Of a stretch of 64,000 bases of DNA, positions 8,986-64,000 are shown one piece after another. Position 1 is the stretch's first letter; every line of letters starts with the position of its first letter. The DNA is taken from the NCBI GenBank assembly GCA_030710605.1, contig CP092865.1:34324244-34388243 (forward strand). Reading direction: 5' to 3'. The notes beneath the pieces were generated by a model. It saw only the letters and a program-made list of their open reading frames with translations. It ran no database searches and was not told the origin of the DNA. This DNA comes from Cordylochernes scorpioides. Lineage: Eukaryota; Arthropoda; Arachnida; Pseudoscorpiones; Chernetidae. The position numbers and the translations under genes were made by a program.

Positions 8986-8987
8986 AC

Positions 8988-15357: not shown

Positions 15358-17253
15358 TGTTGCGTTCCCGGTTTGGATAGATGAAAAGGGAGGATACACG
15401 ATGTGACTTATTAAAGTTTCCTTACTTAAGTATATATATATATAGCAATTTAGGTCAACAACCCCATGTATATAACCCGCAGCAAGACCTTAATGTTGTA
15501 TAATAGAAGCACAGCTGTCAATGATACACTATCGACATATGTCTTTACATCATCACATGTAATGCAATTTGTGCAAACAGGATAAATAAAGAAAAAAAAA
15601 ACGGGGGAAACTCTGTAATTGATTAAGAGTTTGAGTTAAAGCAGGGATCGAGCATATAATATTGTCAGGACAAAGGTCTAAAGATGGAAACAACCACGAC
15701 ACTAGTATACAATTTCATCAGACAACCCATGAAGTCGTTATTAAATTGGGCAATCTATAAAAGACTCCTTCTGGAGGTTTAGCAACCCACTGAAGACGCT
15801 GGGAGCTATTTCATAGAGGAAAATTATAGCAACAGATCTCTATAATTTCTACAGATCAACTGTAAATAGATTCACATTAAGGCATTTTTTATAGCCCAAA
15901 TAACAAAAACAATAGTCAAACATACAAATCTGTTTGCATCATGCCGTACCCTCCTAACAGCGTAAAAATAGCCCGAGGAATCAGAAAATATGGTATAATG
16001 GTAAATATGATGGAATAACGCACTGAAACACATAAAAGTACAAACATTACTAAAACCTGGCAGATAGATACCCTCAAAATAGCCCTAATAAAGTCGTAAT
16101 TTTGCAACTGTTGCTGTGTCAATATATCACAGCAAAGATATAGTACACAACTCTATTTCAACAGAGTCGGTTGTTCTATAATTTGTACACTTTGTGAAAT
16201 TAAGGTGTGGGGGGTAGTACCATAAAGCAAAAGGAATGAAATATGTATGAGAGGAAACAAGAAAATTTCTCTAGATATTTATTTAAATAAATTAAAATTT
16301 GGGAACATGTCTATACTGACGAGATATGCTATTTACATAGTAAAATTTAGATAGAGGTGACCTGAAGTTACTTTATAGCCCTTTAGGGCCCATGCGAAAT
16401 CTAGGTTGGTTACTACACAAAAAGGGGGGGGGGCGCTAAGTCATAATGACAAATGGCTTACCTTTTCTCGAAAGTGCCGGCAAAGGTCTGGTCTCCCGTC
16501 TGAAAACTGTCCTCTCACTGAGCGACTCCGATTCAATCCCCTTTTGGCCAAGAAACCCTCTTTTATTCATGTCTCTCTCCGTTTTCATTCGCTGCCGAGC
16601 CAAAGTTTCTATTGGCTGGCATTTTCATTCGCCGAAAGAAACACCAATCAAAATGGCCAACGGCTCCAGTATACAATTTCATAGACGCCCCAGGCCTCTC
16701 CCATCAAAATAGAACATATAGTATTACCAAAACAAAAAAAAATCTAAAGAGAGAAACAGCCACGGCCCTAGTGTAAGATTTCAGACCCCAGGCCCCCCCT
16801 CCACATGGATTGAAATACTATCCTCCCTTGTTCTCGGGACGGTATATATATATCGCCCCCCCTCCGTCTTAGCTAAAAATCGACACAGGCCCCTTTTCAC
16901 TTGAACTGTAATATAACGCTTTCCTTTCTCGGGAAGGATATTTTATAAGGTTCAGTCTTTTAGAGATCTTCCTTCTCCATTTTTTTTTTTTGGTCACCTT
17001 TACCTAAATTTTTGGTGAGGGGAATATATGTACATATGGAACAACAGCTTCCAGCGCGGATGTCTCTGGATGTCACTGGTGTCTTCTTCACCAGGCATCA
17101 GCTTTCGGCATGGAAGTCTGGTGTCATCAATTGTCTAGGTTTCTGGGCAAAAAGTGGTCTGTAAGTCTATGTGGGAGGGAAGCCATGTATCCATTTGATT
17201 TGATTATACATACGCCTTCTGTTGGGGTATGGTTTCAAAAACGTGTCCCAACA
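15358..17253 (-). repeat. 3' LTR of element L
   Basis: 1,896 bp, in minus-strand sense TGTTGGGACACG...GGGAACGCAACA. It holds a TATA-like AATAAAAG (16559-16568), CCAAT-type motif CCAGCCAATAG (about 16611-16622) and splice-donor-like AAAGGTAAGCC (about 16455-16465). Short ORFs conserved between the LTR copies reflect repeat identity, not genes. Confidence 0.9.
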
Positions 17254-17267
17254 ATCCTCCCCCTGCC
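17254..17267 (-). promoter_or_regulatory. Polypurine tract of element L
   Basis: Minus-strand GGCAGGGGGAGGAT adjoins the 3' LTR; R has the matching GGTGGGGGAGGAAT at 47576-47589. Confidence 0.85.
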
Positions 17268-20200
17268 AAGTAATGGACAAATGCGTTTGTGCTACTCATT
17301 ATTCATCTGCCTTTCATCAGTTACTATGAAAGCAGGCCCATTTCTAGCAAAATGCATTTTCCATTACTAGGTGAAGCCAGATGTACCGAAACCTATAGGG
17401 AAGATAAGGCTAGTCAAAATGATGGTATGCCATTCTAGATGTTTATTATTCCGAACATTAGTGGGCATTGCGCATCCTGGCAAAGGGTTTTTTTATGTGT
17501 TATTATTCTGTCAGCACACTGTTATCAACATAGGTTATGGGGGACAGTCATATCATATGTATGGAAATAAGCAAGGTCATCTGTCTTACCATTCATGGGT
17601 ATATATACCACCCTTCCACTTTCTTCTTTGGCCTTGAGGAGTAGGCCTTCCTTGTGGTAAGTCCTCTCAACCCCATCCTTGCCTCTGGTGTGCTGGTTTC
17701 ATTGCTACCTTCTTTCTGCTAACAATACAGTTAGAACATTTCCCTATTTCATATTATATAAAAAAATTTTGGGCGCCAAGAAGTCGTTTAGAAATAACTG
17801 ACTAGTCCAACTCCTAAAACATGCCAGCATCTTTATTTAAGTACCAATCAAGACATTCGTGTGGTATAGTTATACATATACAATCAAGGAAAGGATAATT
17901 ATAGTTAGCTGAAAGAAATATCTTGGTATATAATAATTAGCCTATGACATGATGACTTTTGCTAAATTAAAAAAATTACAGAAACAAATTGTGAAAGTAA
18001 TTATTAAATAAGGCACGAAATATGTAATGATAAAATGAATCCTTCCATGTTATATGATGGGTATAATATATATATTGAAGAAAACACGTATCATGCAGAT
18101 AGTGATTAAATATGATAAAAATCATCCCATGATAGATGATAAAGAAAACCACTACAAAATTATATATGATGACAAAATATATATACATATACAAGTATGG
18201 CGGATAAAAGACAATAAGGATAAAATAGATCATGCCTTGAGGGAAGAATAAGCCACGACAACATGTTAAAAAAAAATGCAACATGGCAGGTAAATATTAC
18301 TAATATCATGAATATCAAAGGAAATAAATTTGTTGAAATGAATAGTATATGATTATAATATAATATAAATGATATAAAATAATAACCTATTCAATAAGAA
18401 AATGAAAACACCTTATATATATATTTGTGCGCTGAAGGATCAAGGTTTAGTATCTCAGTTAAGTTTTCAATCTTATTCAGTCTGGAATCACGAGTTGGTC
18501 ACTGGGTAATATTCGTCTATCCCGATCCTACTGGAGGGTGTGTTTTCTCTTATGTGTTAGATTCCTCTGTTACAATACTCTCAACCCAGGTGGGAACGTC
18601 ATTCAGAATCTTGGTCAAATGGAACATAGCCCAGACCTCTATTAAACTACACAGTCCTTTTGAATCTAGGGTGACAACCGTATGAAGAGAAATTTTCTGT
18701 TTTGGCAGAGCGACTAATCAATTTCTACTATTTTGTTTGTGGCTCCGTTTACCTTGCCTCTGGGGTGTGTACAGTTCAGCTACCTCCCCCTTCCAAGAAA
18801 TTCACATTACTTTCATCTACTAATATACCCTCTATTCATTGACCTGAATCCTATAAATCTACTTCTTATAAGTTTGAATTTTATCAATCTGAAATTTTGG
18901 TTCCTTTTACAAGTTCCTTCAGAATTCTACTCCCTGTATAACTGCTCTTAATTCTACTGTCCTCAATACAACACTTCTAAAACTTTGACTCACTGGCTTG
19001 TTCTGGCGTCTCGTTCGCGGTCATTATAGTTAACTAATACTTTAAAATCTTATCCTAACATGGAACGAGTCTAAACTCGTTGAAGGTCCTAATAATTACT
19101 TATTCTGCCTCTCGAATCGGTCTTATGCTCGAATTCATTCCAACAAAACGTATGGCAGGGCGAATCCTTTATTAGAAGAAACTTCCGCTAGCTATGGGGG
19201 ATCAAACTGGTACCCAAAAAAATTCAATAGACGGAAACACTTCGTCTAGAATAACTGGGCAATCTCTGCCTACTTGCCAATCTTACAGGACCTCCCGTCT
19301 GGAATACCCTCGCTCCAGCCACGCTAAAAGCGTCGAAACTACGGTGTCAGATCGGTTATCCAAGGTCGCGCCGTTATACCCCAGGCTATACGGCATGGCT
19401 AAAACAAATCCCCCATCCTGCATAAAATTCAATCTATACCTCTTCGTTTCCTCTTGCGAGGAGGAGTTGAGTGGGAAATTCGGCTTGATCCTTGCCTTCC
19501 ACTATCTCCAAGTCTGAGGGTCGGGATAGGGATCATTTATCCACAATCCTTAGAATTCAAGCTAAACTAAGATAAAAGAAAATCAAAGGAAAATTATACC
19601 CCCTAACGAGGGACCTAACAAAAAGGGAGCGAATATTTTCTAACTAGATAGAGTTGTAGTTGTCCTGTTTGAGGCTTCTCGGTCCTAACAAAATTCGAAA
19701 TAAAAAATAAAATAAAATTAAAATCGATCCTATTAAAGTCCTCAACCCTATTCTAATGTAATTTGGGCTCACAATATAATAGTTTTTAACCTTTTTCTAC
19801 ATTCATTGCACCAATTCATTCATACACCCTCCCCCCTATCATTCGCGGTACGCATACAAACTAAGGTTGAAAGCTGCTACAAAGGCCAAAATACTCATTT
19901 ATCTATATCAATAGATCCTAACAAATGATAACATCTTTCAGGACACAATGTGAAATCAAATAAAATAATAAAATTAAAACAAGTTGGGAACTAAAGCCCT
20001 AGGTTACTCAAAAGAAAATGCCTCTGTACAAGCTCTATATATACTAATACTTTATACTCGATAAATGATTGTTAACAATAATTGTTAACAATTCTAAATA
20101 ATCTGGAAGCTAACTTACTAAAAAAAAATCAGTGTAACTTCAAAAACTGCCCTTGCCTTGACACCAAGCGACTTTTCACGACAATTCTATATAAAGACAT

Positions 20201-20910
20201 ACACAAATTATAATGGCGAATAAAGGACCATTAAGCGTGACACCTCATAAAAGCGGATTGAGTCTCTCCCCTAGCCACCGTGGGTGAAGTCACTTTCTTC
20301 TTACTTCCTCGTGCGTCTGCCCCCTTTGCAGTAGTCCGACCTCAGCACTCTATTGAAAGATGGATTTATAGGGTTTACGATTCACTACCCAACACTAACA
20401 TTCTCAAGTGCTTTCCAAGGATCGACTACAGTTTGGGCCTACTTAACTTCTACCCCTGACCTAGGGTCCCTATACTTCACAACTTCACTCTGAGAGATTG
20501 AACTTTTATGTCCTCATTAGACACCTATTTCAAAGCTACTACCTGAAGGCCAGGGATTATAGGGTTTCTGAATTACCCAACACAAGCCATAGGATGCCTA
20601 TTAGGTTTGTTGTTTTAGACATAGCCTCCTTCTAAGTTGTGATTTCCTACACCTTCCTTCACCTATTACTCCTGATAATAACTAAAATTTCAGATTTACA
20701 CTAAATAGTTAATTCACAATGGTATACATTATTCTCATTGGTCTTTGAAACTCGGGTTTTAACAAGAAATAGTTTGTATAGAAAAAAAAGGAATCCTAAT
20801 GAAGTTCTACTTTAAAAAAAAAAGGTTTTTAAATGAAAAAAAAAAAGGTTGAAATCTCTAAACTTCTCATTCTATCGAGCTGATTCTCCGTACACACTCC
20901 AAAATCCTAG
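17268..20910 (-). other. Non-coding 3' body of element L
   Basis: AT-rich, no convincing ORF on either strand. The segment around 19120-20100 is recognisably similar to R (about 44900-45830, opposite orientation) and to T (58330-58800), for example the blocks near ACAATATAATAGTTTTTAACC and CAGGACACAATGTGAAATC. The part at 17800-18420 is AT-rich and without visible relatives here. Confidence 0.7.
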
Positions 20911-22008
20911 TTAGTGGCGACAGTCTAAGCAGAATTTACACTGTGTGGGCCTTTTCACCCTTGTAGACCTGCGTAAAGTTAAACTGTTCACACTAACTCT
21001 GTCAACTTCCCCTCGTCTCATTACTTCTGAGTTCGCTCTGGTTGTCACCCCTTGTGGAACCACTACATTAACGGACCTATTAGGGAGATAAGCTGGACCT
21101 GTAAGATGAATCCAATGATCTTCATCACTGGAACCTTGACTTGAATTACCATCACTAGTTTCCTCCTCCTCTGTGGGGAAAATCCTAATTGGTATATGGT
21201 ATTGTTTTAACCTATCTATATGGTATTTATCCAAATTCCCAGTTTCTAGATTCTTCAAGAGATATACAGTATCACCAGCTCTTCTTAGTACCTCATATGG
21301 ACCCCCATACCTTGGCTCAAATTTGTGACGCCCCTTCGTCTCATGCATTCTCTCCACTAGGACTAAGTCCCCGTTATTGAAAGTTCTCAGCCTTTTGTTT
21401 TCGAACTTAATCCTAGCTTCTTCCTGTTCATTCAAGTAGGTTTGCCTTACCACCTCTCTTATCTTCTCGACCTCCTCTGTTAGTTCCCGCTCGTAGAAGG
21501 CTGCCGTTTGAGCAATCAAATCTTCGCTTACAGGACTTTGTCCCGCTTCCTGAAAAGGTTGCGGAAGCCTCAGCTCATGTCCGAAGACGAGTTTCGCTGG
21601 CGTAAATCCTGTACTAGAATGTTCAGTGGTTCTGATAGCTAAAGCTACCATGGGTAGGATGTCATCCCAATTAGAACTTGCCTCACACCTACGCAAAGAT
21701 TCAATTACTGTTCTGTTGAGCCTTTCTACAGCGCCATTACTTTGAGGTCTCCAAGCAGTGGTGTTAACTGCACTTACCCCCATGGCCTTGCAAGTCCCTT
21801 TAAAAATACAGCTAATGAATGCCGAACCCCGGTCCGAAAGTATAGTTTTCGGTACTCCAAAGATAGTAATTACGCTTTCCAACAGCGCTTTAACCACTGT
21901 ACTGGCACACTGGTCTCTTGTAGGTATTAAAATAGGGAATTTGGTAAATAAATCGACTATGGTCAGGATGCTAGAATGTCCTCTGGAAGTCTTCTCTAAG
22001 GGTCCTAT
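20911..22008 (-). pseudogene. Gypsy integrase, C-terminal two thirds (element L)
   Basis: Open for 366 codons from just after a TGA at 22009-22011. It starts inside the catalytic core (IGPLEKTSRGHSS, TIVDLFTKFP), so the zinc finger and first catalytic Asp are absent. The second Asp (SDRGSAF) and Glu (GAVERLNRT) remain with 35 residues between them. A GPY/F module (RYGGPYEVL) follows, then a polar linker and a tail RRSTRVKRPTQCKFC ending in a cluster of Cys/His. R keeps 296 codons and T 55 codons of the same protein, with the same tail. No in-frame stop occurs, but lack of the first Asp makes strand transfer unlikely. Confidence 0.9.
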
Positions 22009-22011
22009 TCA

Positions 22012-24380
22012 CCGAGGGGTGAAAGATGGGTTCATGGCCCAAAAGGAAAAGGAAATGGGAGAGGTACATGTTCATCCATGTGGGTGGATAGTAATCTTAG
22101 ATCAATGCTCTTTCTGGGTGTATTGAAACTAACTAGCCATGATGGTAGAGGCGCTGTTCTCACTGCCTCTACTGTACATCAGAATGAACTATAATTATTA
22201 CTAGTGTATTATTATTCCAACAGCCTATGACCTTTAAACCTTTATACCTTCATATACACTCGACGGGGTAGTCACCTTGTTAAAAAAAAAATCTATAATG
22301 TCATAGATCAGCTAGAGGGAGAACATAACAAAATTGTGCGAATAGTCTGTTTCAACTACTGATTGTAAGCCTATTAAACTCGTTCTCTTTAGGTTGGCTC
22401 GCTCATTAATCTACAATCTACGTTCAATAGTCATATTGAGTTCACATGGATGCTAGATGTAAACTGTATCAAAATAGTGTAGTTTTCTAGTTTCCGAATT
22501 ATATGACAGTTAGAAAAAGAAACAAACATTCTGGAAATATCTCGCACTGGCTACTATTAAAAAAAATTGAATGGGGTACAGCTCTGATCTTACAGGATAC
22601 CTCATGGCTCATAGAATTGAATCGCTCATTTCTCACTAAAATATTCACACAGGGTATGGAGGTCTCCAGCGGTTCTATAGCTATTGGTCAACTAAATTAA
22701 TTAATGGCAGGAATTGAAGTTAGTTTAAATGCTCATGTGCTGTTTTGTCATGCGTCTTTATGTCATCTGCGAAGGAAAGTGTCGCCTCAAAGGACCTAAT
22801 TCTGGGACTAACATCCGCTGCACATTTCAGGAAGGAGTGGTCGTCCATACAATAGCAAGATATCATTTTGCTGCCAATGTACAATGTTGAGCATTTTCCA
22901 TGTCGTCATTTTGTCGATCCCCAATCTTCTAGGGTGTTTCTTTAAGCATTTCTTGATGTCATTTAATGCTTCATGCGATCCCGCCCGGCATTCAATAAGT
23001 AGTATTTGATCGTACCACCTCCAGGAGACCATCCCATTGCGGCCGAATCATTTCCACCCAACTTATAACGCCGTCCATATCGCGTAATTGAAATTAGTGT
23101 AAAACTCAAAGAATAAGACCTTAATCTCTTAATTCTTTACTAATTTCAGTTGGCTCAACATAAATCTTCTCAATTATTAATTTAGTACAGTGGCGTGACA
23201 TGTCACACTTCTTCTAGTTCTTTCGCAAGCTCGATTAATCCCAGTGAAAGCCAGTTCAGGCGTCAATCCCGTGCTAACCCGTCATGCATGACTTCAAATT
23301 TGGAAATTATTAGACCTGAATATTTGCAGTGGCATTTGCTTCCACTGAAAGTATTTAAGACACAAGGCTGCCTCTTATCTTGTTTAAATCACTGTCTTTA
23401 CTCCCATATGCCTGTGTAAACTTTAACCATGACCTTATCAATTCTCAAAATTCTGCCTATCGAATATCCTGAGAATCAATGTTCTTCTTGTCTACGGCGG
23501 ATTAACACAATAATTGTTCCCTAGAGTTATCTGCGTCGAGTGGTCAGTCTGTACTACTAATTCTCCACTCTAACTCCAGGATTCCTTTATCTACTCAGGC
23601 TGTTCAAATATTTTCAAGACAGTTGTTCAAATCCCCAATGATAATCTGCTAAATTTCGATAATTATTGATATTCTCATTAAACAGACTAACTACACCTTC
23701 CTGACACAGAAGTGTCCAGCATCAAGATATGGCGTACTGCCCATTTCTTCATTTGATGACTGTGTCAAATTACAGCTGAAGAAACATACTAAGCATATAA
23801 CTGGTTTAAATTTCATGTAATCTCATCATGCCTTCTGCTGGCAAATATTTACTGTAAAATTCAATACTATCAAGATGGTTTTATTTGTCTTCATCCAAAA
23901 AAAAATGTTTCAGAAATAGAATCTTGGAAATCTCTACTAAAGACAAAAAATTATACATTTGTCAATTCAGGATAACCTTCCCTTGTCAGAGTGTATACAG
24001 GATATTTAAGATCATATGCAGTTGGAGGCATCATGAAAAAAAAAAAAGTCGGTTGCCTGACGCGTCTTTTTATGGTGATCAAACTTCTCTCTTCACGGGT
24101 ACGCTAACTGGATCTTCAATTCTATTTTCACCTTAAGGCTCATATATCTGCCACTCTCCCAATCCACTATGCGTTAAAAAAATAAAATCGATTAACTATC
24201 ATTCAGCATGTTAGCCCTAATCTGGATGCACAGGCTAGTATGATTTGATAGAAAGCGCTATTAAAATGAAGTTAAGATATTTGTATCCAGCAATATTTAT
24301 CAGAACTCACCTCTGCTGTGAGAAATTATATCAGAGCTATGATGAAAAAAAATGCTAAGTCATTTCAGTAGACTACTGTA
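22012..24380 (-). other. Non-coding 5' body of element L
   Basis: No supportable gene. The first part (22085-22320) matches T at about 61850-62060 (CTGGGTGTATTGAA and CATCAGAATGAACTAT blocks). The minisatellite present at this place in R and T is missing. Confidence 0.7.
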
Positions 24381-25480
24381 AAACACTGATCACCGTTCTA
24401 AATTTGAACCATGGCAATCCAACCTCATTTCTCATACTGTATATAATAATTTGAGAAAGTAAAATAAAGAAATTGTAATCAATGGTGCTCGCAACAGAAT
24501 TCAAAATGATTGAGACACAGAACATTATAAATAATGTCCAGCAAGCAGGATACCAAACCACCTTTATATTACAACATTTCCACAAAAGTATAACTATCAA
24601 TAACCCAATAAACAAAACCACAAAATATCTATAGGGCGATATGTTACATTCCATACTCACAAACATCTATAACAATAGCCAACTACTTAAGAAACTCTGG
24701 CATCCAAACATATTACTGTAATTCCCCTAACATAGGCTCCACCATAAAAGTCCACTATCTAAAAATAATCCTACTATCATAAAACCCACTAACCAAAACA
24801 GAGAATAAAAGGCAATATATTCCGTAGAGTGTAACAGCTGCCAAGCCAAATACGCAGGGGAGACAGGAAGGAGAGTCAGCAATAGAATATATGAACATAG
24901 ACGCAACGTTATTAATCAAGATAATAGGTCTCTAATTTTCCAATACTGCAAAGGAACAGGTCACACTTTCGCATTAGGAGAACCTAGAATACATTACAAT
25001 AACATAAACAGCAAATATCAAGGCTTATAATTGATTCTCTATTATTCAGAAAACACAATAGCATTAATAGAAAATAGATTTGCCCGAAACATATAACACA
25101 ATATATCCTAGTACCAGCTAATAATATCAACAATAATATAAATAACTTATATGTAATAGCCAATAACTATTATAAAACTACTTAAATAATAGAATTTCTA
25201 ACCTATAAGATAATTCATAGAATATAGCAAACAATAGTAGAATATGTGTAAATACCTTAACCAAAAAAAATTGTCTTAAGAAAACAAATAATATGCAAAA
25301 CTTCCTAATGTATATATATATATATATGTACATAGAATAATAATAGTTTTAGCATCAGGCGACGTTATATTTTCTTGATATATTGTATATGTTTCTCCTG
25401 TAGAAGGGCGGACAAGCTCGAAAGCTCGAGAAGACCAGAATAAAAGATACTCATCCCCATAAACGTTTTACTTTGATATC
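24381..25480 (+). mobile_element. Penelope-like element remnant, 3' end, antisense within L
   Basis: On the plus strand, opposite to L, degenerate codons for the C-terminal part of a Penelope-like protein lead into a GIY-YIG endonuclease module and a 3' tail with the AAGCTCGAAAGCTCGAGAAG motif near 25410. A homologous antisense remnant sits in R at 38861-39990, so it was acquired before L and R split. Confidence 0.75.
24812..25030 (+). pseudogene. GIY-YIG endonuclease module of Penelope-like remnant
   Basis: A 73-codon open stretch ending in TAA at 25028-25030. It contains AIY (for GIY), CNSCQAKYAGETGRR (YAG for YIG) and NRIYEHRRN, matching the CxxC-YIGxTxR...EH pattern typical of Penelope-like GIY-YIG domains, then TGHTFA. 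An in-frame TAA upstream near 24805 and the altered GIY/YIG residues show decay. There is no start codon, so this is a fragment of a larger protein. Confidence 0.78.
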
Positions 25481-25749
25481 AGAAATCAATGATAATATAA
25501 AGGTTTTGCCACAAACAATGTGAATCGTAAAAGACAGCGGCGGGAGATGCGGTATACACCGCCTCAACATAACTTTCATTGCCTGATAAAATTCCAGTGA
25601 AACGGAAAGCATAAATTATAATTCACGATTTATAATAGACTGTTAATCTCAGGATGCGTGGACTACTTCACCAATACTTAAAAATAGTATGGCTTTTCAT
25701 TAGGTATATATTTCTAAAGTATAGGGGATGAAACATATACTAAATTCGA
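25481..25749 (-). other. Conserved leader after the primer site of L
   Basis: In minus-strand sense this follows the primer site and is closely similar to R 38432-38850, including AATTTAGTATAT, TAGAAATATATACCTAATG and TGAGATTAA. The conservation without coding potential would fit a packaging or dimerisation signal, which is inference. Confidence 0.6.
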
Positions 25750-25767
25750 GCCCCGCGGCGGGCGACA
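25750..25767 (-). promoter_or_regulatory. Primer binding site of L, tRNA-Lys-like, degenerate
   Basis: Minus-strand TGTCGCCCGCCGCGGGGC starts one base after the 5' LTR. R has TGGCGCCCAAAACGCGGGGC at the same place. Both approximate the complement of the tRNA-Lys(CUU) 3' end with indels. Confidence 0.6.
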
Positions 25768-25768
25768 T

Positions 25769-28700
25769 TGTTGCGTTCCCGGTTTGGATAGATGAAAAGG
25801 GAGGATACACGATGTGACTTATTAAAGTTTTCTTACTTAAGTATATATATATATAGCAATTTAGGTCAACAACCCCATGTATATAACCCGCAGCAAGACC
25901 TTAATGTTGTATAATAGAAGCACAGCTGTCAATGATACACTATCGACATATGTCTTTACATCATCACATGTAATGCAATTTGTGCAAACAGGATAAATAA
26001 AGAAAAAAAAACGGGGGAAACTCTGTAATTGATTAAGAGTTTGAGTTAAAGCAGGGATCGAGCATATAATATTGTCAGGACAAAGGTCTAAAGATGAAAA
26101 CAACCACGACACTAGTATACAATTTCATCAGACAACCCATGAAGTCGTTATTAAATTGGGCAATCTATAAAAGACTCCTTCTGGAGGTTTAGCAACCCAC
26201 TGAAGACGCTGGGAGCTATTTCATAGAGGAAAATTATAGCAACAGATCTCTATAATTTCTACAGATCAACTGTAAATAGATTCACATTAAGGCATTTTTT
26301 ATAGCCCAAATAACAAAAACAATAGTCAAACATACAAATCTGTTTGCATCATGCCGTACCCTCCTAACAGCGTAAAAATAGCCCGAGGAATCAGAAAATA
26401 TGGCATAATGGTAAATATGATGGAATAACGCACTGAAACACATAAAAGTACAAACATTACTAAAACCTGGCAGATAGATACCCTCAAAGTAGCCCTAATA
26501 AAGTCGTAATTTTGCAACTGTTGCTGTGTCAATATATCACAGCAAAGATATAGTACACAACTCTATTTCAACAGAGTCGGTTGTTCTATAATTTGTACAC
26601 TTTGTGAAATTAAGGTGTGGGGGGTAGTACCATAAAGCAAAAGGAATGAAATATGTATGAGAGGAAACAAGAAAATTTCTCTAGATATTTATTTAAATAA
26701 ATTAAAATTTGGGAACATGTCTATACTGACGAGATATGCTATTTACACAGTAAAATTTAGATAGAGGTGACCTGAAGTTACTTTATAGCCCTTTAGGGCC
26801 CATGCGAAATCTAGGTTGGTTACTACACAAAAAGGGGGGGGGGCGCTAAGTCATAATGACAAATGGCTTACCTTTTCTCGAAAGTGCCGGCAAAGGTCTG
26901 GTCTCCCGTCTGAAAACTGTCCTCTCACTGAGCGACTCCGATTCAATCCCCTTTTGGCCAAGAAACCCTCTTTTATTCATGTCTCTCTCCGTTTTCATTC
27001 GCTGCCGAGCCAAAGTTTCTATTGGCTGGCATTTTCATTCGCCGAAAGAAACACCAATCAAAATGGCCAACGGCTCCAGTATACAATTTCATAGACACCC
27101 CAGGCCTCTACCATCAAAATAGAACATATAGTATTACCAAAACAAAAAAAAATCTAACGAGAGAAACAGCCACGGCCCTAGTGTAAGATTTCAGACCCCA
27201 GGCCCTCCCTCCACATGGATTGAAATACTATCCTCCCTTTTTCTCGGGACGGTAAATATATATCGCCCCCCCTCCGTCTTAGCTAAAAATCGACACAGGC
27301 CCCTTTTCACTTGAACTGTAATATAACGCTTTCCTTTCTCGGGAAGGATATTTTATAAGGTTCAGTCTTTTAGAGATCTTCCTTCTCCATTTTTTTTTTT
27401 GGTCACCTTTACCTAAATTTTTGGTGAGGGGAATATATGTACATATGGAACAACAGCTTCCAGCGCGGATGTCTCTGGATGTCACTGGTGTCTTCTTCAC
27501 CAGGCATCAGCTTTCGGAATGGAAGTCTGGTGTCATCAATTGTCTAGGTTTCTGGGCAAAAAGTGGTCTGTAAGTCTATGTGGGAGGGAAGCCATGTATC
27601 CATTTGATTTGATTATACATACGCCTTCTGTTGGGGTATGGTTTCAAAAACGTGTCCCAACACTTCCTTGTGTTATACCTGTATATAACCCGTAACCTGT
27701 ATATAACCTGTATATAACCCGCAGCAAGACCTTAATGTTGTATAATAGAAGCACAGCTGTCAATGATACACTATCGACATATGTCTTTACATCATCACAT
27801 GTAATGCAATTTGTGCAAACAGGATAAATAAAGAAAAAAAAACGGGGGAAACTCTGTAATTGATTAAGAGTTTGAGTTAAAGCAGGGATCGAGCATATAA
27901 TATTGTCAGGACAAAGGTCTAAAGATGGAAACAACCACGACACTAGTATACAATTTCATCAGACAACCCATGAAGTCGTTATTAAATTGGGCAATCTATA
28001 AAAGACTCCTTCTGGAGGTTTAGCAACCCACTGAAGACGCTGGGAGCTATTTCATTGAGGAAAATTATAGCAACAGATCTCTATAATTTCTACAGATCAA
28101 CTGTAAATAGATTCACATTAAGGCATTTTTTATAGCCCAAATAACAAAAACAATAGTCAAACATACAAATCTGTTTGCATCATGCCGTACCCTCCTAACA
28201 GCGTAAAAATAGCCCGAGGAATCAGAAAATATGGCATAATGGTAAATATGATGGAATAACGCACTGAAACACATAAAAGTACAAACATTACTAAAACCTG
28301 GCAGATAGATACCCTCAAAGTAGTCCTAATAAAGTCGTAATTTTGCAACTGTTGCTGTGTCAATATATCACAGCAAAGATATAGTACACAACTCTATTTC
28401 AACAGAGTCGGTTGTTCTATAATTTGTACACTTTGTGAAATTAAGGTGTGGGGGGTAGTACCATAAAGCAAAAGGAATGAAATATGTATGAGAGGAAACA
28501 AGAAAATTTCTCTAGATATTTATTTAAATAAATTAAAATTTGGGAACATGTCTATACTGACGAGATATGCTATTTACACAGTAAAATTTAGATAGAGGTG
28601 ACCTGAAGTTACTTTATAGCCCTTTAGGGCCCATGCGAAATCTAGGTTGGTTACTACACAAAAAGGGGGGGGCGCTAAGTCATAATGACAAATGGCTTAC

Positions 28701-31322: not shown

Positions 31323-32163
31323 CTTCCTTGACTTTATTCGCGAAATCTAGTACGACTTATTCTTTACTATTCTCCCTCAATACCCTTGTCTAGCACCAAT
31401 CTCTTCTAGAATTATCCATAGTCATTTTGTGGCATATACTGTGCAACATCCATGAAGTCATTATTGATTAGATAATCTATAAAAGACACCTTCTGGCGAT
31501 TTAGCAACCCACTGAAGACGCTGGGAACTATTTCAGAGAGGGAAATTATAGCAATAGATCTCTATAATTTCTACAGATCAATTGTAAATAGATTCATACA
31601 CAAAAGATATAGTGCGGAAAGTTTAGGACAGATGTGTAAAGAGATTCCTCATTAAACTAAGGCTCACGTGTACTTGGGAAGAAAGGAGGGAAATATTGAA
31701 TTATTCTCGTTCCTACATTAAATTAATTGATCTATGAAATAATGGTCGGCTCTCCCATCAAAATAGACGCTGAAATTGATCGCCATCTATTGGCCGCCTC
31801 TACAGACCAACGGACTCGGGCAGTGACAAGCCCATTTTGTGTCAAATTCTCTGAGATCATCCAACAACTTTAAGGGATCTCAGATTGAGATGAACATGTT
31901 ATTATTAGAAACTATAAACCTGAATATAAGACCAAATTAACAATCTCTATAGAAGTATAATATGTTGAAATCATTATTTCAAAATTAGATATCAGGAAGT
32001 ACCAGGTTCAGATTTTATTAGTAATAAAATCTGATTAAACATGCAGGTTTCCTTTTAATCCCGATTTTTATAACAAAGATTCGACAAAATGCGTTGAATT
32101 AGGTTACTATCTGGATATATGGAAAGGACTCTATTTGTAAAGATTATACCAAAATCTAACAAA

Positions 32164-43250: not shown

Positions 43251-43276
43251 GCAATCCTGGCAGGATATGATTTAAG

Positions 43277-50500: not shown

Positions 50501-50832
50501 TTGGAAGCCTCACTTGGAACTGCATTCCTCTAAATCCTTCTGTGCCTAGTATATTATCTGATATTCCATTCTTCCAATTATAGTTCTTATGTTCAAGTGC
50601 TACATTGCTTATCTCTATATCAAACGCTTCGCCTATTGGGGTAGAGACCCTGTTACTAAAATGTTACACCTGCAGTTTTTATTAAAGAAATTTTATTAAG
50701 TCACAACGTACATTCCAAGGATGGTGGTGACATTGTAGTCGAAGGTTACACTCGTAAATTGTATTAAGGAAATTGTACTAAGTCACTCCATACATGCTCC
50801 GTTCTCGTAGGTCTAAAATCGGGAGCCCGACA
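47590..50832 (+). repeat. 3' LTR of element R
   Basis: 3,243 bp, nearly identical to 35166-38410; visible differences are one T/C change near 47852 and homopolymer length changes. Confidence 0.94.
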
Positions 50833-52484
50833 GCTTCAGGAAAAGAAAGAAGACTGGCCAGTATCAAAAGTACAGTATGATCTGGAAGCCATTGAAGAAG
50901 AGAGGAGGAAGACTGTGGTGGCTGGATTTGTAGCCAAAAAGCCCGAGGAGAATCCATGGTATCTGAATCTATACGAGGGAAAACGTGAAGTGACTCTACC
51001 ACAAATACTGAGAGTAATCGCGTGGATGCTACGTTTCAAGCCCTCTGAATACAAAGGAGATATCATCTCACAAGAGGAGCTAGACAGTGCTGAAAAGTCC
51101 CTAGTTAAGATAATACAGAGTGAATCGATCGGTGAGGAAGATCCCAAGATGAAGCAGCTACACGCGTTCCAAGATAAAGAAGGATTATGGAGAGTGAAAA
51201 CGAGGATAGTGAATCGAAATGACGATGAACTGTTCCGATTGCCAATTTTGATCCCAACGAATCATCGGTCACAGAGCTAATTGTGAAATCAGTCCACGAG
51301 AAAATGTACCACTGTGGAGCCCAGACGCTGCGATCAGTACTTAGAGAGAAGTTCTGGATTCCAAAAGCTCGACAACTAATCCGTCAGGTAATTCATAAAT
51401 GTCCTCGCTGTCGACGATTTGAAACCAAGTGAGTCGACGTACATGAAGCATCGTTGCCTCAACATCGCGTACGAGATGTTGTGGTTTTTGAGGTGACAGG
51501 AATTGACCTCGGAGGACCTTTATATCTGGAAGATGGACAGAAGGTTTGGTCCGTCATCTTCACCTGTGGTGTATACCGTGCGGTCCACCTCGAACTGGTG
51601 ACTTCCTTATCGACGGAAGCTTTGGTGGGAGCAGTAGAGAGGTTCGTAGCAAGACGAGGTTGCCCTGCAGTCATCTACTCAGATAATGGGACGAATCTAG
51701 TTGGACTCCGGAACGAACTTTATCGAGTTAATTTTGGAATGAAATGGAAGCTCAATCCTCCGGCAGCACCGTGGTGGGGAGGTTGGATCGAGAGAATTGT
51801 TGGACTCACCAAAAACCTGCTTCGAAGATTGCTGGGAAAACGTGTTGTCAACTACGAAGAAATGGTGACGATCCTCGAAAACTGTGAACGAGTTATCAAC
51901 GCGCGACCACTCACCTACATTGCTGAGGACAATGATGACCTTGTGCCATTAACCCCAGAGATGTTCCTTCGAGAACCAAGAACTGAAGGAGAGATTGATC
52001 TAAATGAATTCAGGTGTAACTTTGGGAAGAGCTATGAGAAACGCAAACGACTCCTGAAGGAATTCAGTAAGAGGTTCAGAAGCGAGTACCTAGGATTGTT
52101 GGTGCATCACGACAATCGCAAGAAACAACGACAGTTAAAAGTTAGAGATATCGTCCTTGTGGAGGTTGAGAACAGGAAGCAAATAAACTGGCCTATGGGA
52201 AAGATTACGAAGGTGTTTCCTGGAACTGACAATGTGCGAAGACTTGTGGAAGTTAAGACTAAGTCTGGATTCATGAAGCGTGCAGTTCAACGATTGTTCC
52301 CACTGGAAGTACCATCTGAGGACAAGGCGACGGGGAGCTTAAGCCAGCGGAGGATGAGATCCTCAGGGAGAAAACACCCAGTGTGGAGTCCGTGTCAGTG
52401 CAAGAGAAAACTACTCCAGTAAAAGTAGGGAAAGTTTACACGCGTTCTGGAAGAAAAGTCAAGTTACCGATTAGGTTTAATTGA
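50833..52484 (+). pseudogene. BEL pol C-terminus: integrase, frame-broken
   Basis: Continues the frame from 35165. The first part (50834-51280) runs from the RNase H-integrase connector; a one-base shift near 51262-51268 moves into the frame with the integrase zinc finger (His near 51298 and 51310, CPRC near 51404). TGA at 51430-51432 is in frame. The next open stretch (51433-52422) holds the catalytic core: Asp in TGIDLGGP, Asp in YSDNGTN and Glu in GWIERIVG, then a DUF5641-type C-terminus (WPMGKITKVFPG). A last shift near 52330 is suggested because another frame reads on to TGA at 52482-52484. In this family the enzyme inserts element DNA; this copy is inactive. Confidence 0.92.
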
Positions 52485-52599: not shown

Positions 52600-53069
52600 T
52601 GACGCGAAAATAGGTACTTTTGGGCCAACTGACGCTGGCAAGACTGCCCCGCTGCCCCCCCCCCGCGCATGCGCGAGCAGAAAAAAAAAGGATTAACCCC
52701 GCAATTCCGGTAAACAAAAGCTGTTTCGACGCCAACGTTTGGTTTAGACAGGCCTGATAAAAGAACTATCTCTCATAAATTTTAATAATTGTTTTGAATA
52801 ATATTTGTATTAATATTAATTTGTGTGATTTTTAAATAAATATTTCTTTCAATAATTATTAAATTATTCATCACTGTTTTCAAATTTAGGCCTCGCCATC
52901 CAGCGTTTTGATTCAATTCTACTGATCACTGCGACAAAGGTATTGATTTATCAATTTATAATTTTCAAGTCAGTTTCCAGCATTACTGTAAAGCTAGGAG
53001 CTTTCAGTTCAGGTTAAGCCATCGGGACCTTGTATTGTCTTTTTTGTTCAAATTTAAGACAAGATAACA
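52600..53069 (+). repeat. 3' LTR of BEL element
   Basis: 470 bp, TGACGCG...GATAACA; followed by CAGCT (53070-53074), matching 12454-12458. Confidence 0.93.
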
Positions 53070-55340: not shown

Positions 55341-56357
55341 TTATTCAATGAAGTTTCCATTATTAGCTACAACAGTCTCGAGGCGAGTGCGGAATGAAGC
55401 ACAAGCCTTGGTGACGATGACCTTGTCCATTTGGGTCATCACCGTGTGAACTGCTTTCTTGACAGACTGGATGGTGGTATGAGGAGCTTTGTTGACATCT
55501 CTCTCAACAACGCCCCATACATAGTAGTCGAGGGGATTGCAATCTGGAGAATTAGGGGGCCAAATATCAGGACCCCAGTGACTAGGGACGTTAAGTGTCA
55601 GCCACGATTGTGTCTTTTTTGCCTTATGGGCTGGAGCTGAGTCCTGTTGGAAGACATACTTCCTTCCTGCGGCCACCATGTCCATCCAAGGCTTCACAAC
55701 GGTCTCCAGAACATTGATGTAGGTGTCAGCGTTCATCCTAAGGCCCTTCTCAAAGAAATGGGGAGGCATGACATCACCTTCACTGCTGATAACGCCAAGG
55801 ACCATTACGGAGGCAGGAAATTTCGTGTGCATCACGACAGGTATCTCTGAGGGGTCTTTACAGATCCAGCGATCATTCCTGGGATTTACCTTTTGGTCCA
55901 CGTCAAAGTTCTTTTTGTCAGAGAAGAACCTTAGCATGCCAAAAGAGTTGTGTTTCAGGTTGTTGAGGAGGGCAGCAGTCTTACCTTTTCTGTTATTCTT
56001 CATATTCTCAGTCAGCAACTGACCTTTCCGAAGGGCATAAGACTTGAGACCAAGGTCCTCATGGAGAGTTCTGACAATTGTCATAGAGCCAACGTCCATT
56101 TCCTTGGCTATGGCCCTCATGCTCTTCCCAGGGTTTCCATCAATCTTCTCCTTGACATTTTTGACAAATTCTTCGCCTCTTACCCTGTCCGATTGACGCG
56201 AGTGCTTTTTCCTTGTAGCTATCCCCTCTTTGTTACTGTCTGCCTCATCAAACTGCTTCTTGACACGATAAATAGTGGTTTTGGGCAACTTAAGAAAATC
56301 CACTATCTCTTTGGGGCTCCTTCCGGCGCGCATAGCAACGATGATGGTGTTAAACAT
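55341..56357 (-). CDS. Mariner (maT-type, DD37D) transposase
   Basis: 338 aa from the ATG at 56357. Residues 10-40 form a helix-turn-helix (SPKEIVDFLKLPKTTIYRVK), followed by a second DNA-binding region (about 55-110, PGKSMRAIAKEMDVGSMTI). The catalytic triad is D147 (FFSDKKN), D239 (QQDSAPAH) and D277 (NPLDYYVWG), a DD37D spacing typical of the maT group of Tc1/mariner. The enzyme cuts and pastes its element at TA sites. In the same frame the sequence upstream looks coding but has TAG at 56403-56405, so the protein may be N-terminally short relative to its family. Otherwise intact. Confidence 0.9.
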   Translation of the reverse strand: MFNTIIVAMRAGRSPKEIVDFLKLPKTTIYRVKKQFDEADSNKEGIATRKKHSRQSDRVRGEEFVKNVKEKIDGNPGKSMRAIAKEMDVGSMTIVRTLHEDLGLKSYALRKGQLLTENMKNNRKGKTAALLNNLKHNSFGMLRFFSDKKNFDVDQKVNPRNDRWICKDPSEIPVVMHTKFPASVMVLGVISSEGDVMPPHFFEKGLRMNADTYINVLETVVKPWMDMVAAGRKYVFQQDSAPAHKAKKTQSWLTLNVPSHWGPDIWPPNSPDCNPLDYYVWGVVERDVNKAPHTTIQSVKKAVHTVMTQMDKVIVTKACASFRTRLETVVANNGNFIE

Positions 56358-58228: not shown

Positions 58229-58328
58229 NNNNNNNNNNNNNNNNNNNNNNNNNNNNNNNNNNNNNNNNNNNNNNNNNNNNNNNNNNNNNNNNNNNNNNNN
58301 NNNNNNNNNNNNNNNNNNNNNNNNNNNN
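58229..58328. other. Assembly gap (100 N)
   Basis: Exactly 100 N, a placeholder length; real size unknown. It hides the left boundary of element T. Confidence 0.99.
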
Positions 58329-59748
58329 TAGAATTCAAGTTGATATAATGAAATAGAGTGATTGATTACCCTAATAATAGAAATCAATTTTATACTCCCA
58401 TAGGAGGAGACCTAACAAAATGGAGCGAATACTTTTCCTAACAATAGAGTTGTACAGTCCTGTGAGGCTATCAATCCTAACAAATAAAGAAATCAAAATT
58501 AAAATCGAACCTATTATGTTCCCCAACCCTATGCTAATGTACTTTGGTCTAACAGTATAATAGTTTTTAACCTTCTCACACATTCATTATTCCAATCCTT
58601 TCATACACCCTCCCCCTATCATTCACGGAATGCACACAAACTAAAGTTAAAAGCTGCTACAGAAGCCTAAATACTCAAATATCATTATCAATATGCCTTA
58701 ATAGTAATAAATCTTACAGGACAAAATGTGAAATCAAATAAAATTAACAAATTAAAACAAATGGGGGCTAATGCCCTAGTTTACTCAAAAAGAAAATGCC
58801 TCATACAAACTCCATTTAAAATTACTTGTACTTAAATAAATAATACTCATACTTAAACAAATTAATAAAATTGATTGTCGACAATCAAATACTGAGATCT
58901 AACCTATCATTAAAATTGTGCATCTAATAGTTTGAAATTCTTCTTCTTATCTTGACACTTGGTGTCTACACAAGATGAATCATCAAAACTAGCACTTAAA
59001 TGGAGCGAACTGAACTTCAAGCATTTACCTCATTGCCATATATGATAGGTCTACAAGTGTTTTGCCAACGCTACTTCCCATATAAGATCATTGGCATCCT
59101 TCTTTCTCTGCTATTCAGCTAAACTCTTTCTTTGGAATTAAAGGGCTTTCATTACCCAACCCGTTCTGGAGATTAACAACAGAGATCACTTGCTATCCTA
59201 ACATATCAACTCTTAGACCACAACTGCCTTACACACCCTCATTAGAAATTCTCTTTGAACTGTATTCTGGACCCAGGGATTACAGGTAGTCAAGTTTTAC
59301 CCAACACAAGATCCAAGTCTGTCCATAGAGAATAGGTTACAAGCACAGCAATTATCTAGTGTGTCTAAGCCCCTTTATCTAATTTTAAAGTTGAACCAAA
59401 GTTCAGAACCTTAAATAAAAAAATTAAAACTAAACAAACTGTTGAACTTAAGTCTTAAATCACAACCTGCTATTAATACAGAATAGCATCTTCAATAAAA
59501 CAGGAAAACCGAAAACTCCTTACAATGAACATTTAACACAAACACAAGGTTGTAGCCTTAAAAAAAGAAAACTGAAAGAAACTGAATCCTTTGCAATGAC
59601 ACTTAGAATATAAAACCATGGTTGAGGCGAAAAAAAAAAAAAACTGAAATTCTTCAAGACCTCAGTCTAGGGCCTTTAACCCACGTTCTAACACTTCATA
59701 CTATGATCAAAATTCAACTAAACTCTAGTACACATTCTATAGGTTTAA

Positions 59749-59915
59749 TCATTGGCAACCTGGACACGATCTGCACTCGGTGGGCTTCTTGACCCTGGTC
59801 GAACGGCGTATTTCAGGGCCGTCAACATTGCCACCAATTGCCCTATTTACTACCTCTAGCGGGTTTCCTAAGATTGCTGTCTCTCGTGGTCCCTCTGGTT
59901 CTACAGTTGGACGAA
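59749..59915 (-). pseudogene. Integrase C-terminal tail only (element T)
   Basis: About 55 codons ending in TGA at 59749-59751. It aligns with the last part of the R protein (PRETAILGNPLEVVNRAIGG, IRRSTRVKKPTECRSCPGCQ). Everything upstream, including the core and GPY/F module, is gone, and the minisatellite starts within about 40 bases. No stop codon interrupts the retained part. Confidence 0.85.
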
Positions 59916-59949
59916 ATTGTAGCATAAAAATAAAAAAATAAAAACTAAA

Positions 59950-61100
59950 ATTTTCCTAAATCATATCCTGACAAGGTTGCGAAAGCTCTTCAAAACGATG
60001 TGTTATATTAAAACAAGGTTGATACAACTCTTTCAACTATGTACTACACTATGGGAGGTTGTGACAATTCTACACTAGGAGAAGACGAAAACCCAAGATA
60101 TCGTCCATGTAGTGAGCATGAAACCCTACCACGATCCCGAAGTACAAGAACAGATTGCCCAAGGTCATGTGACCGACTAGTAAACAGCGAGACGCTGTTT
60201 CTCTTGTGGAGGGAGTGAAATCAGGAGGACAGAGTTTCCTGGTATTCCCTCTTATCTGGACCGACCGGTCGGGTAAACAGTGGCGTCACGTGGAAGGAGG
60301 AAATATCTGAGTTCCTCCCTCTTGTTCTAACTGCTGGGTCGATTTGGCTCATGTAAATAGTAACTCTTATTTTATATCTAAAATCTCTCATATAACTTAT
60401 TAAATAAAACGGTGTAAAAACGGTGTACTATACAAGGATAAGGTTGTGACAAATTTCTCTAAATGACACACTAATATTAAAACAAATTGTGAAGATCTTT
60501 AAAGATGGCAACAAACACTACAGCAAGGTTGTGAGACGATATGCTGCACAAAGACAAGGTTGAGACAAATAACACACTAACACTGAAACAGGGTGTTAAA
60601 GCTCCTTTCAACGGTCACTTAACACTAGAACACACGTTATGGTTTAAAAATAAAAAGAAGAACTGCAAACTATTTAAAGTTCACCATGACACTAAGACAA
60701 GATTGTTAATATAAAATAAAGTAGGAAAACTGGAAGTTTAGAACACACGTTATAGTTTAAAATAAAAAGAAAAACTGCAAACTCTTCAAAGTTCACCATA
60801 ACATTGGGACAAAATTGTTAGCGCAAATAAAAAAATTGAAAACTCTTTAAAGTTCATCATCACACTAGGACAAGATGTAGCTTAAAATAAAAAAGAAAAA
60901 AAAAGGACCGAAATTTTAAGATTCATTACAACGCTAAAACAAACTCGTAGCTAGAAAAATAAAAGAAAGCTGGAACTCTTTAAATCACACCCTATCACTA
61001 AGAACAAAGAGTTGTTAAAAAAAAAAAAAGACTGAGTAACTCTTAAATATCATATACCAACATTAAAACCAAGATTGCAGCCAATAAAAAAATTGCTTCT
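59950..61100 (-). repeat. Minisatellite of element T
   Basis: Reverse-orientation relative of the array at 42540-43250, with repeated AA(A)CAAGGTTGTGA and TAACACTAAAACA-type blocks, longer and more diverged, with extra A-rich spacers. Confidence 0.75.
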
Positions 61101-61229
61101 GAAAAAAAAAGGAGAATACTTATTTGTTATTTAATATATAACCTAGTATTGTAACTAATAAAGACCTATGTATATAAATTACTGTATACAGTTGCTGAAA
61201 CTTAGGTAAATCAGCTTACACAAACTCTC

Positions 61230-63730
61230 AGTGCATAATATGTATTATTTACAGATATTGGTATCTAATCTAAAACAAATTATCCATCAACCACTTGATG
61301 AAGAGTTAAAAAATCGTTCCATCGTTCTATCAGCCAACAGCTATTCTCTAAACGTTGAACGCACCTTCTCCTATCAACCTTTATCTACTATTTATAAAAC
61401 TCTTTATCCAACTTTCTTCAATTCTTTCTCTTTCAACATCTTTCTGCATCTTTCTATCTCTTTCTCATCTTTCATCATCCTCAACACCTTTTAACTTATT
61501 TCCATCGCATCTTTCTTCAACGCTTCCAACACATTTCGACTCTTCTTCATCGCCTTTTAGCTCACTTCAACGCTTTTTCATCGCCTTTTTAACACACTTC
61601 AACGCTCTTTCATCGCCTTTTAAACATACTTCATCGCTTTTTCATCCCTCTGGTGTTTCCTTGAAACCCGTCATCGGGATTGGATCCCGATCTATTATCA
61701 TTCTTCATTTTGAACTACTCTAGTATACTATCCCTCCACTGCCAGCTCTATACCAAAGTCCGACATTCGTTCAGTGCGGGAGCCACCGAAAAAATTTTGA
61801 GGAAAATTCCAGAGAGCCAGTTTGCACCCCCTAATCTCCCCTTCGGGGAGATAAGCTCTTCCTGGGTGTATTGAACTAGCTAGCTAAGGTAGCCCATTGA
61901 TAAAGGCGCCGTCCTCTCTGCCTTTACTGTATATCAGAATGAACTATTAATCATTACTAGTGTAATAGCATCCTGATAGTCTATGATTTTAATCCTTTAT
62001 ACACACTGGGTTAGGTAGTTCTCTTGTTAACAATAGAAAGAGAACCCATAACACTGTAGGCTAGTTAAAACGCAATAAAGTTAGATAAACAGTTTGCTTC
62101 AGCCAAACTAGAAAGGGCAGCCTTGTCATGGGAATTGGAGATATATGCATGTACAAAGGTCAGTTGTCCTATAACTTGAACATTTGTATCAAAATGGGTT
62201 ACACCTAATTGTTAACATTAAACAATGCTGATTGGCTACACCTGCAATATGCATTGACATGAGTAGCTCTGAAAATTTTAACATAAGATTTCAAATTTTA
62301 AGGTGTCATAAAGAAAAATTCTAAAAAGAAAAAATCTGCTCAATTTTATCTTTTCCATTTAATGCATAATGAATTTTTATGAAATAACTGTTTCTTATGC
62401 AACTCTCCATCTTATTGTTCCTTTCCCTATTCCAGCCCGAACTCTTGTTCACTACACGTTGGTTTGAAAAAAAAATTACTGTCAATTGTTGGCTAATCTC
62501 TCTTACGCCTTTCATGATATCGTGTATTTTGTCCTGACCTGGTTTGATTCAGCACGCCTTCCTATCGGAACTTCGTCAGGATACAGTGCTGGACATTTAA
62601 CATATATATGTTGTAATGGTATCAAAGATTTGTTTCGTTAAGACATGGCTGTCGCAGTGATTTTTCGTGGTATGATAGAGGTGAACCGAGCTTGGACACA
62701 TCTGATCAGGTCCGGGTTGGCACTACCATATCTTGCGTAATTTACTTGGCATGTCGATTAGCTGATTTTGGAAGATCTGAGCGAAAACCAGGTGCATCAG
62801 CCTGCAGATGGATGAATATAGAGTAAATCTCTATATTTTATAAATGATGCATATATATTTCCGATGATTTCTTAACATAGTACCACAGTGACCCCTTCTT
62901 CAACTGATTCATGTCACGTGGTTTATACGCTCGGTGGCGTCCATCGGGATAATATGTTTTATGTCGTTCTTCACTCACGTCCACCTTCGTGAGCATCATA
63001 GTCCTATTATATAATATACAATTTTACAGACAAAATTGCATGCTCCGACGTCCATTGTTTAAACCACGCAAGATATTCTACTTAATCTTCAAGACCTATT
63101 CCCGATCTCCCAGAAATGCAGTCCTTGCTACTGATTACCAATGTCTAATGCCACATTCCATAAAACTATTAAAGCCGATGTCGAAACGAGTTTTGGGTCT
63201 GTTCTGATGCTATAAGTCTCTCCTTTGTTATAGGCCTCTGCTGCCCTGACTACTGTTACTATGGATAATAATTACAGAATTCATTAACAAATTAAATATA
63301 CTATGAGTAATAATATGTATTTCTGCAGTGTCACAAAATCTGTATTTAATTAGCTTCTTCAATCTGGCATTCTGTCTCAATAGACTCATTAAACTCTAAT
63401 TCTCTGGTAAATGGGTTCTCATCTGTAAATTAGAGCTAGTGGGGATGGAAGAAGTTGACCAGAACAGATTAACAACTTCTCTGTCGCTACATTCACTTGG
63501 TAACAAAGGTAATGGGGTGTGATGGTTTAAGTACACCATCAGAACATATAGGAATGTGGGCTATACCCTGTTATAATGTTGTGTATTATAGAAATTTGGG
63601 ACATTGCATAAATCCATGAGTTGACGATATTACCCTACGGCACTTTCTGAGAAATTTTCTTTTTGATGATCCAGTGATTTTCTTTTATTCTCCAAATAAT
63701 AATTTTTTTAATTGATTTTTAATATTTTGT
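61230..63730 (-). other. Non-coding 5' body of element T
   Basis: Pyrimidine-rich TTCATCGCCTTTT-type repeats occur at 61440-61650 and a short segment similar to L at 61850-62060. I see nothing supportable in 62100-63730. Confidence 0.55.
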
Positions 63731-63738
63731 CTGATTAT

Positions 63739-63987
63739 GGCAACAATGCTGTTACCAAAATGTGACACTATTAATTTATTTGGACCTTTTGGATTAGGTC
63801 TTATTTTCTTGTAAATAATTAACAGTTAGGTATTCGGTGAAGCAAAAAATCTCATTATAGGACACTAGATACATTAGAAAAATATATATATAAACTTAAA
63901 GCATCTAAATTTAAATGATCAAATGGAAGCGAGCACTAACTTATTTATTTGTTACCTTTGTCTGAAGATGGTAACAAGACTGTTACC
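63739..63987 (+). repeat. Two GGTAACA...TGTTACC hairpin motifs
   Basis: 63739-63756 (GGCAACAATGCTGTTACC) and 63970-63987 (GGTAACAAGACTGTTACC), each followed by AAAATRT-CACA and the second preceded by TCTGAAGAT. The motif also occurs in R at 46749-46786. Confidence 0.7.
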
Positions 63988-64000
63988 AAAATATCACATA

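Follow-up and report, generated by a model that had tools for sequence, protein, structure and literature searches.

Large retrotransposon derivatives (LARDs) of the Dasheng/RIRE2 type are large non-autonomous elements with a primer-binding site (PBS), a polypurine tract (PPT) and long terminal repeat (LTR) ends, from which the genes of the partner are absent. In soybean, Du et al. are said to have described, in 2010, LTR swapping between autonomous and non-autonomous partners, an exchange of modules resembling what we report here. Our subject is a group of three elements, L, R and T, in a 64,000-nucleotide stretch of the genome of the pseudoscorpion Cordylochernes scorpioides (the window; assembly GCA_030710605.1, contig CP092865.1, called C3 below, C3:34324244-34388243). 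R and L have LTR ends, PBS, PPT and the loss of the partner's genes in common with LARDs; unlike LARDs, they keep an integrase tail, occur together with the parent family and have a base-exact deletion junction. We conclude, with a probability of roughly 0.77, that L and R are deletion derivatives of two autonomous families, with T a separate one, and that the deletion of R originated once and has since had its flanks exchanged with autonomous lineages.

Related partnerships are described in parts of several other reports. In wheat, the non-autonomous subfamilies of Angela and of Wilma/Sabrina/WHAM track their partners, with gene conversion or template switching proposed as the means of changing hosts (PMC9744471); there the LTR is the part that was tracked, in a plant, while here the LTR end, the leader and the integrase with the 3' body are swapped around a fixed junction. 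Members of the Arabidopsis family Onsen recombine pairwise during bursts, as retroviruses do; old and young members were involved and recombination was followed in new insertions, whereas in the present case one deletion is shared (PMC5668417). The einkorn wheat element Quinta, a non-autonomous Gypsy element derived from and mobilized by the autonomous Cereba, keeps its gag, which is gone here while an integrase tail is retained (PMC11302176). Culex non-autonomous LTR elements have no coding capacity and contain internal tandem repeats, apparently without a master copy, whereas the repeats of the present elements also occur in full-length copies (PMC3286476). Exchange between partners has also been described for plant pararetroviruses (PMC5491270). 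In the part of the literature that we searched, we came across no animal study that traces a single deletion junction through several partner backgrounds.

Both L and R possess the ends of LTR retrotransposons, that is, two LTRs, a target site duplication (TSD), a PBS and a PPT. The LTRs of R, which begin with TG and end with CA, differ by 3 mismatches in 3246 aligned bp, making it a very young insertion; its TSD, GCTT, is at 35162-35165 and 50833-50836. A clear PBS, TGGCGCCC, which we take to be tRNA-Lys-like, is located immediately 3' of the LTR, whereas the PBS of L is divergent. The LTR pair of L contains 12 mismatches in 1894 bp. The interiors of L, R and T were divided into 90 stop-to-stop pieces of at least 38 amino acids and searched with Pfam. 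Integrase, in the frames of L and R, gave the only convincing matches; no reverse transcriptase, protease or gag family was found among these pieces, and the remaining entries were isolated weak matches to unrelated families (E 0.013 or worse). At this sensitivity, the results bear out a first-pass annotation made from the sequence alone, which had described L and R as lacking gag, protease and reverse transcriptase, with a truncated integrase, and as bounded by LTRs of 1.9 and ~3.2 kb, to which the TSDs CTTC and GCTT can now be added. Its statement that each integrase remains open to the homologous stop also stands, with the sizes revised to 365 codons for L, 298 for R and, for T, a 68-codon frame (59752-59955) of which ~52-55 codons are homologous.

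The 2.62-Gb assembly, in 24 contigs, was then searched; all whole-genome counts given here are lower bounds, as the best candidates were scored, and the frame classes were counted by hand. The R integrase gave 132 scored matches and the R leader 40. The 298-codon frame of R is present in 20 of the 132 (one aligning from residue 25 only), and a frame of 1191 codons in 14. The gag-pol partner for which the first-pass annotation had proposed searching with the R LTR and leader does exist, with the same leader, the same 3' body and a pol of 1191 codons. One such copy, L069 (C3:34580500-34590200), lies ~200 kb from the window and carries the R leader, gag, pol and the R integrase tail. It is 86% identical to R over R positions 38412-42547 and 97% over 43262-44369; between leader and tail it encodes a 339-codon gag and the 1191-codon pol, the latter in the -1 frame relative to gag. 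The order of its domains is gag, RVT_1, RNase H, H2C2 and rve, accompanied by a zinc knuckle and a p58 C-terminal domain, while no protease model matched at E 0.01; this is the Ty3/Gypsy (Metaviridae) order. The leader-to-integrase distance is 4.4-4.9 kb in ten R-type pairs versus 8.5-9.1 kb in three 1191-class pairs. R is an internal deletion from the end of the leader to the middle of the integrase, with ~4.5 kb lost. An explanation of the stretch between leader and integrase as foreign filler was rejected; it is autonomous leader with imperfect tandem repeats (periods 43 and 129 bp, ~42689-43052), which the long copies have too. The idea of a non-autonomous derivative with an autonomous partner thus holds for R, whose movement in trans we infer, and is probable for L.

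At the R junction, leader GATATGATTTA is joined to integrase GAGTTGCG with one extra A between them. The sequence TTTAAGAG is found there in all 13 of the 298-class copies read, and TTCATGAG in the other 17 copies read. Neither side supplies the A: the leader reads TTTAGG in 8/8 copies and the integrase ATG in 17/17. A genome search for the exact 25-letter pattern, in which any base was permitted at the odd position, returned 17 matches on 10 contigs, all with A, and none with the reversed pattern as control. Fifteen of these belong to the 298 class. The remaining two exact junctions, C3:99652581 and C5:16268313, are absent from the 132 scored integrase matches and are perhaps copies with further loss of the tail.

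Sequences around this junction do not follow it. The long-branch sequence L014 was left out of the alignment windows, of the set for the ratio of nonsynonymous to synonymous substitution rates (dN/dS) and of the approximately unbiased test (p-AU). In a tree of the 2.4 kb 3' of the junction, with L014 included, the R-types need six label changes; with the junction-near bases and L014 removed, seven changes are needed and a single R-type clade is rejected (log-likelihood loss 1245, p-AU 1.7e-44). On the other side, where 19 of 30 fetched loci were used and 11 of unclear class left out, clustering by class in the LTR end and leader was significant in none of 13 alignment windows. From 10 nt 3' of the junction onwards, 5 of 25 windows of 100 columns are weakly clustered (p <0.05), the 25 being those with a defined ratio. 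The first window of 300 columns clusters the R-types fully because it contains the junction codon; the effect is gone when the first 10 columns are omitted.

Seven R-types and seven long copies, with both sides fetched, were compared module by module (LTR end, leader and 3' half). For five of the seven R-types, the modules are not all nearest to one long copy, and two have three different nearest long copies. C11:58.66, for instance, is nearest to C16 in its LTR end (1.6%), to C3:34.58 in its leader (3.6%) and to C5 in its 3' half (0.6%); in C14:71.36, the LTR end is nearest to C5 (0.9%) and the 3' half to C3:34.58 (2.1%). C3:53.65 and C12:37.60 (C12 below) have C16 as the nearest in all modules. 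C12 tests as a mosaic when its sites are scored against autonomous C16 and R-type C11. Its identity to C16 is 98.5-100% in most of the first 2.6 kb and 97.5-100% 3' of the junction, with 128 C16-like versus 18 R-type-like sites in the first region and 18 versus 6 beyond the junction. Just 5' of the junction, a block at 3909-4506 is R-type-like (excess of 42 in 297 sites, reached in 0 of 20000 permutations), and the last 70 bases before the junction contain no C16-like and one R-type-like site.

Several observations weigh against this account. Mobilization of R in trans by its partner is itself inferred. Each of the five clustered windows passes the 0.05 level by one measure out of two (7-12 of 500 permutations), and five is about twice the number expected by chance for 50 tests; label shuffling ignores relatedness, and some local clustering of R-types 3' of the junction may be real. 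The comparison group includes long copies with an interrupted pol and, on the 3' side, also the truncated types L026 and L035. There may also be mosaicism among the long copies, which the module comparison does not separate. Region 3555-4446 of C12 is mixed, with 57 C16-like and 69 R-type-like sites, and lies in tandem repeats, making its alignment uncertain. The exact junction pattern is missing from 5 of the 20 copies in the 298 class; two of these, on reading, proved to contain the junction next to a changed base. The R junction has almost no microhomology. For L, a shared frame length (9 of 112 scored matches) stands in for a junction, and there may be some selection on the R-type tail.

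The R-types adjoin different long copies, as they would if the same deletion had recurred in each autonomous lineage, for example through a spliced subgenomic RNA that was then reverse transcribed; and three deletion types, R, T and a further class described below, begin within ~70-90 nt of leader, for which the chance is 0.0006-0.001 with uniformly placed points (a post hoc figure). Recurrence was already weakened by the junction itself and is highly unlikely: the A comes from neither side in the leaders and integrases read, yet is the same in all 17 exact matches, and the leader end of C12 and C3:53.65 is unlike that of C16, the long copy to which they are otherwise nearest. An origin of the junction by canonical splicing was rejected, as there is no GT..AG: the leader side continues with TTTAGGAAAA and the integrase side reads CATTCATGAG. 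The patchwork of identity, to which the C12 leader adds a dissimilar patch at 1400-1800, could also result from gene conversion among integrated copies instead of copy-choice reverse transcription, and the 3 differences in 3246 bp between the R LTRs are compatible with either gene conversion or copy-choice in a young insertion. We regard conversion as unlikely, as likeness to one partner spans whole LTR-end and leader blocks and the copies concerned are on different contigs.

Another question is why the integrase tail has stayed open. Eighteen of the 20 copies in the 298 class have no internal stop, and dN/dS is 0.24 between R-types (78 pairs) versus 0.14 in the other set (120 pairs, some of them from copies with an interrupted pol or from two other truncated types), as might be seen if the tail were a useful protein, such as a targeting or decoy factor, under selection. 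We consider this improbable. The retained tails do not begin at a common point and measure 365 codons in L, 298 in R, ~55 in T and 340 in the L026 class, and five non-overlapping pairs of close R-types show 16 synonymous and 16 nonsynonymous codon changes against 31 and 16 in four pairs of the other set, indicating, with small numbers, weaker constraint in R-types. Open frames are in any case no proof of function, because they are expected under regular exchange with a functional pol, which accounts for them. That L, R and T are three decayed single copies, the outcome which the first-pass annotation had tied to the existence of full gag-pol copies, still fits T. Such copies exist, but the R deletion is common to many copies at different places, its frame occurring in 20 of 132 scored matches and its exact junction 17 times on 10 contigs; R is therefore not merely one decayed copy, and this explanation is refuted for R. 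The frame length of L recurs too, in 9 of 112 scored matches, and for the group as a whole the probability of simple decay is close to nil.

We thus favour a single deletion with exchanged flanks, for which the following course can be envisaged. The parents of L and R would be Gypsy-type families in which the LTRs are very long and the noncoding leaders long as well. The R deletion would go back to one event, probably one in which reverse transcriptase jumped from the integrase to the leader end. Short repeats are the likely jump sites for the deletions, and the joins of T and L026, with their leader breakpoints close to that of R, speak for such strand jumps. RNA of the R type, retaining PBS, PPT, LTR ends and leader, could then be packaged and copied by the proteins of the partner, and in mixed particles copy-choice recombination would swap the LTR, leader and 3' half with those of the partner. 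The deletion would persist in surroundings that other lineages keep renewing, and the tail would remain open mainly through repeated exchange with functional pol, not through a need for the fragment. More tentatively, and at less than even odds, the retroelements could be seen as a quasi-sexual population in which the R deletion recombines freely like an allele, handed on by copy-choice recombination between successive autonomous lineages, with leaders swapped even between families; in that case tail and leader would act as homology arms, and their retention in derivatives would be explained.

L belongs to another family. Its integrase gave 112 scored matches, with a 1185-codon frame in 57 and the 365-codon frame of L in 9; among 40 scored matches of the L leader, the leader-integrase spacing is 3.7-3.8 kb in two of the 365 class versus 6.3-7.2 kb in four of the 1185 class. 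The length of the 1185-codon frame suggests the domains of an autonomous partner. Between the integrase tails of L and R, dN is 0.14 and dS 2.7, a saturated value, and each has its own long-frame copies; the split between the families of L and R is ancient, and the two elements do not belong to one family as the first-pass annotation had it. Their leaders are nevertheless 86% identical over 1.57 kb (24072-25632 and 38691-40262 of the window), mostly 84-94% per 100 columns with a gapped stretch near the start, and this ~1.6 kb of noncoding similarity ends abruptly. Such likeness alongside saturated integrase synonymous sites could reflect strong constraint or exchange between families, and suggests to us that the leader may be exchanged as well.

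T is a third, separate deletion. It joins leader and integrase at AACTGTAGAACC, with a 12-nt microhomology that is exact in 1 of 8 leaders and 29 of 30 integrases read. The autonomous leader continues in T uninterrupted past the breakpoint of R, and T has its own, different junction, so that T does not represent R after further erosion. The 3' body is cut by a 100-N gap at 58229-58328; no LTR, PBS or PPT of T was found within the window, and 62038-64000 does not match the R leader. The earlier claim of leader, 3' body and PPT common to all three elements is consequently borne out for T only in part, in a portion of the leader and of the 3' body. Another independent deletion class of the R family is represented by L026 (C10:54962870-54966763), with a 340-codon frame (2 of 132 scored) joined at CAATCCTG in the one copy read; the second match with this frame is C3:137837802. 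With three different junctions and two families, the stepwise erosion of integrase from L to R to T that had been proposed is unsupported and was rejected. Two other frame classes were set aside: in the 383-codon class (9 of 132), the one copy read is not a deletion, having uninterrupted pol homology with an in-frame TAG, and L035 (418 class), whose pol starts within 2 nt of that of L, was left as a coincidence, as its left side is unrelated sequence.

The window as a whole is a nest of retroelements (Table 1), in which a BEL/Pao element hosts a solo LTR, itself hosting L, and, separately, R. Neither of these hosts, nor the two extra tandem LTRs of L, had been noted before. We take the outer element to be BEL/Pao from its DUF1759 and DUF5641 matches; its LTRs diverge by 4.2%, and reading frames for gag/protease (12996-14762) and integrase (51454-52422) are present. 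The right part of the solo LTR contains a further stretch without a match (~32165-33280).

Table 1. Positions in the window of L, R, T and the elements that host them.
Feature	Position	Strand	Details
BEL/Pao element, host of solo LTR, L and R	12459-53069	+	LTRs 12459-12928 and 52600-53069
Solo LTR of the same kind as those of L, split by L	14904-15357 and 31323-34879	-	TSD CATG
L, non-autonomous, second family	15358-31322	-	3' LTR 15358-17253, 5' LTR 25769-27662; TSD CTTC
L integrase tail, 365 codons	20911-22008	-	
L leader	24072-25768	-	similarity to R-family leader stops abruptly
R, complete non-autonomous element	35166-50832	+	LTRs 35166-38410 and 47590-50832, 3.25 kb
R leader, PBS then long noncoding	38411-43274	+	aligns with leader of autonomous copies
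R deletion junction	43264-43288	+	leader joined to integrase; junction as read in the text
R integrase tail, 298 codons	43271-44167	+	zinc domain and first part of catalytic core gone
R 3' noncoding body	44168-47589	+	ends in PPT GGTGGGGGAGGAAT
T, partial third derivative	58329-62038	-	part of leader, integrase tail, part of 3' body

The 5' LTR of L is followed by two extra tandem copies, at 27709-29491 and 29538-31322, giving three copies over 25769-31322 with a period of ~1831 bp and 99.6% likeness. In the second and third copies, 109 bp are missing from one end. Flanking sequence was included in the duplication, since its first 8 bases (CTTCCTTG) recur in the spacer; an assembly error may be the source of this arrangement.

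Elsewhere in the window, a second Gypsy-type element (8473-12285) has LTRs with 6 mismatches in 514 bp and 12 gap columns. It contains one open frame, 9390-11732 (780 codons), which leads from a zinc-knuckle gag directly into integrase (H2C2, rve and p58 C-terminal domain) without matches to protease, reverse transcriptase or RNase H, and is apparently an in-frame gag-integrase fusion formed by internal deletion. A small LTR element at 5081-7694 has 497-bp LTRs with 8 mismatches and an open frame of 574 codons that matched no Pfam family at E 0.1. A Tc1/mariner-type transposase frame of 338 codons is found at 55341-56357, and pieces on the minus strand of 1-3463 resemble, judged by eye, a non-LTR retrotransposon. 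Rfam and tRNA scans across the window gave no matches.

Partnership and swapping are known in plants, and the R system is a well-resolved animal variant of them, not a new kind; the new result is the exchange of the sequence around one fixed deletion. It provides a clear genomic test, in an animal, of how parasitic retroelements keep pace with changing partners. As the base-exact junction marks descent while the flanks record changes of partner, recombination rate and tract length become measurable. Trees and dN/dS values of retained coding tails may mirror the partner and not the derivative.

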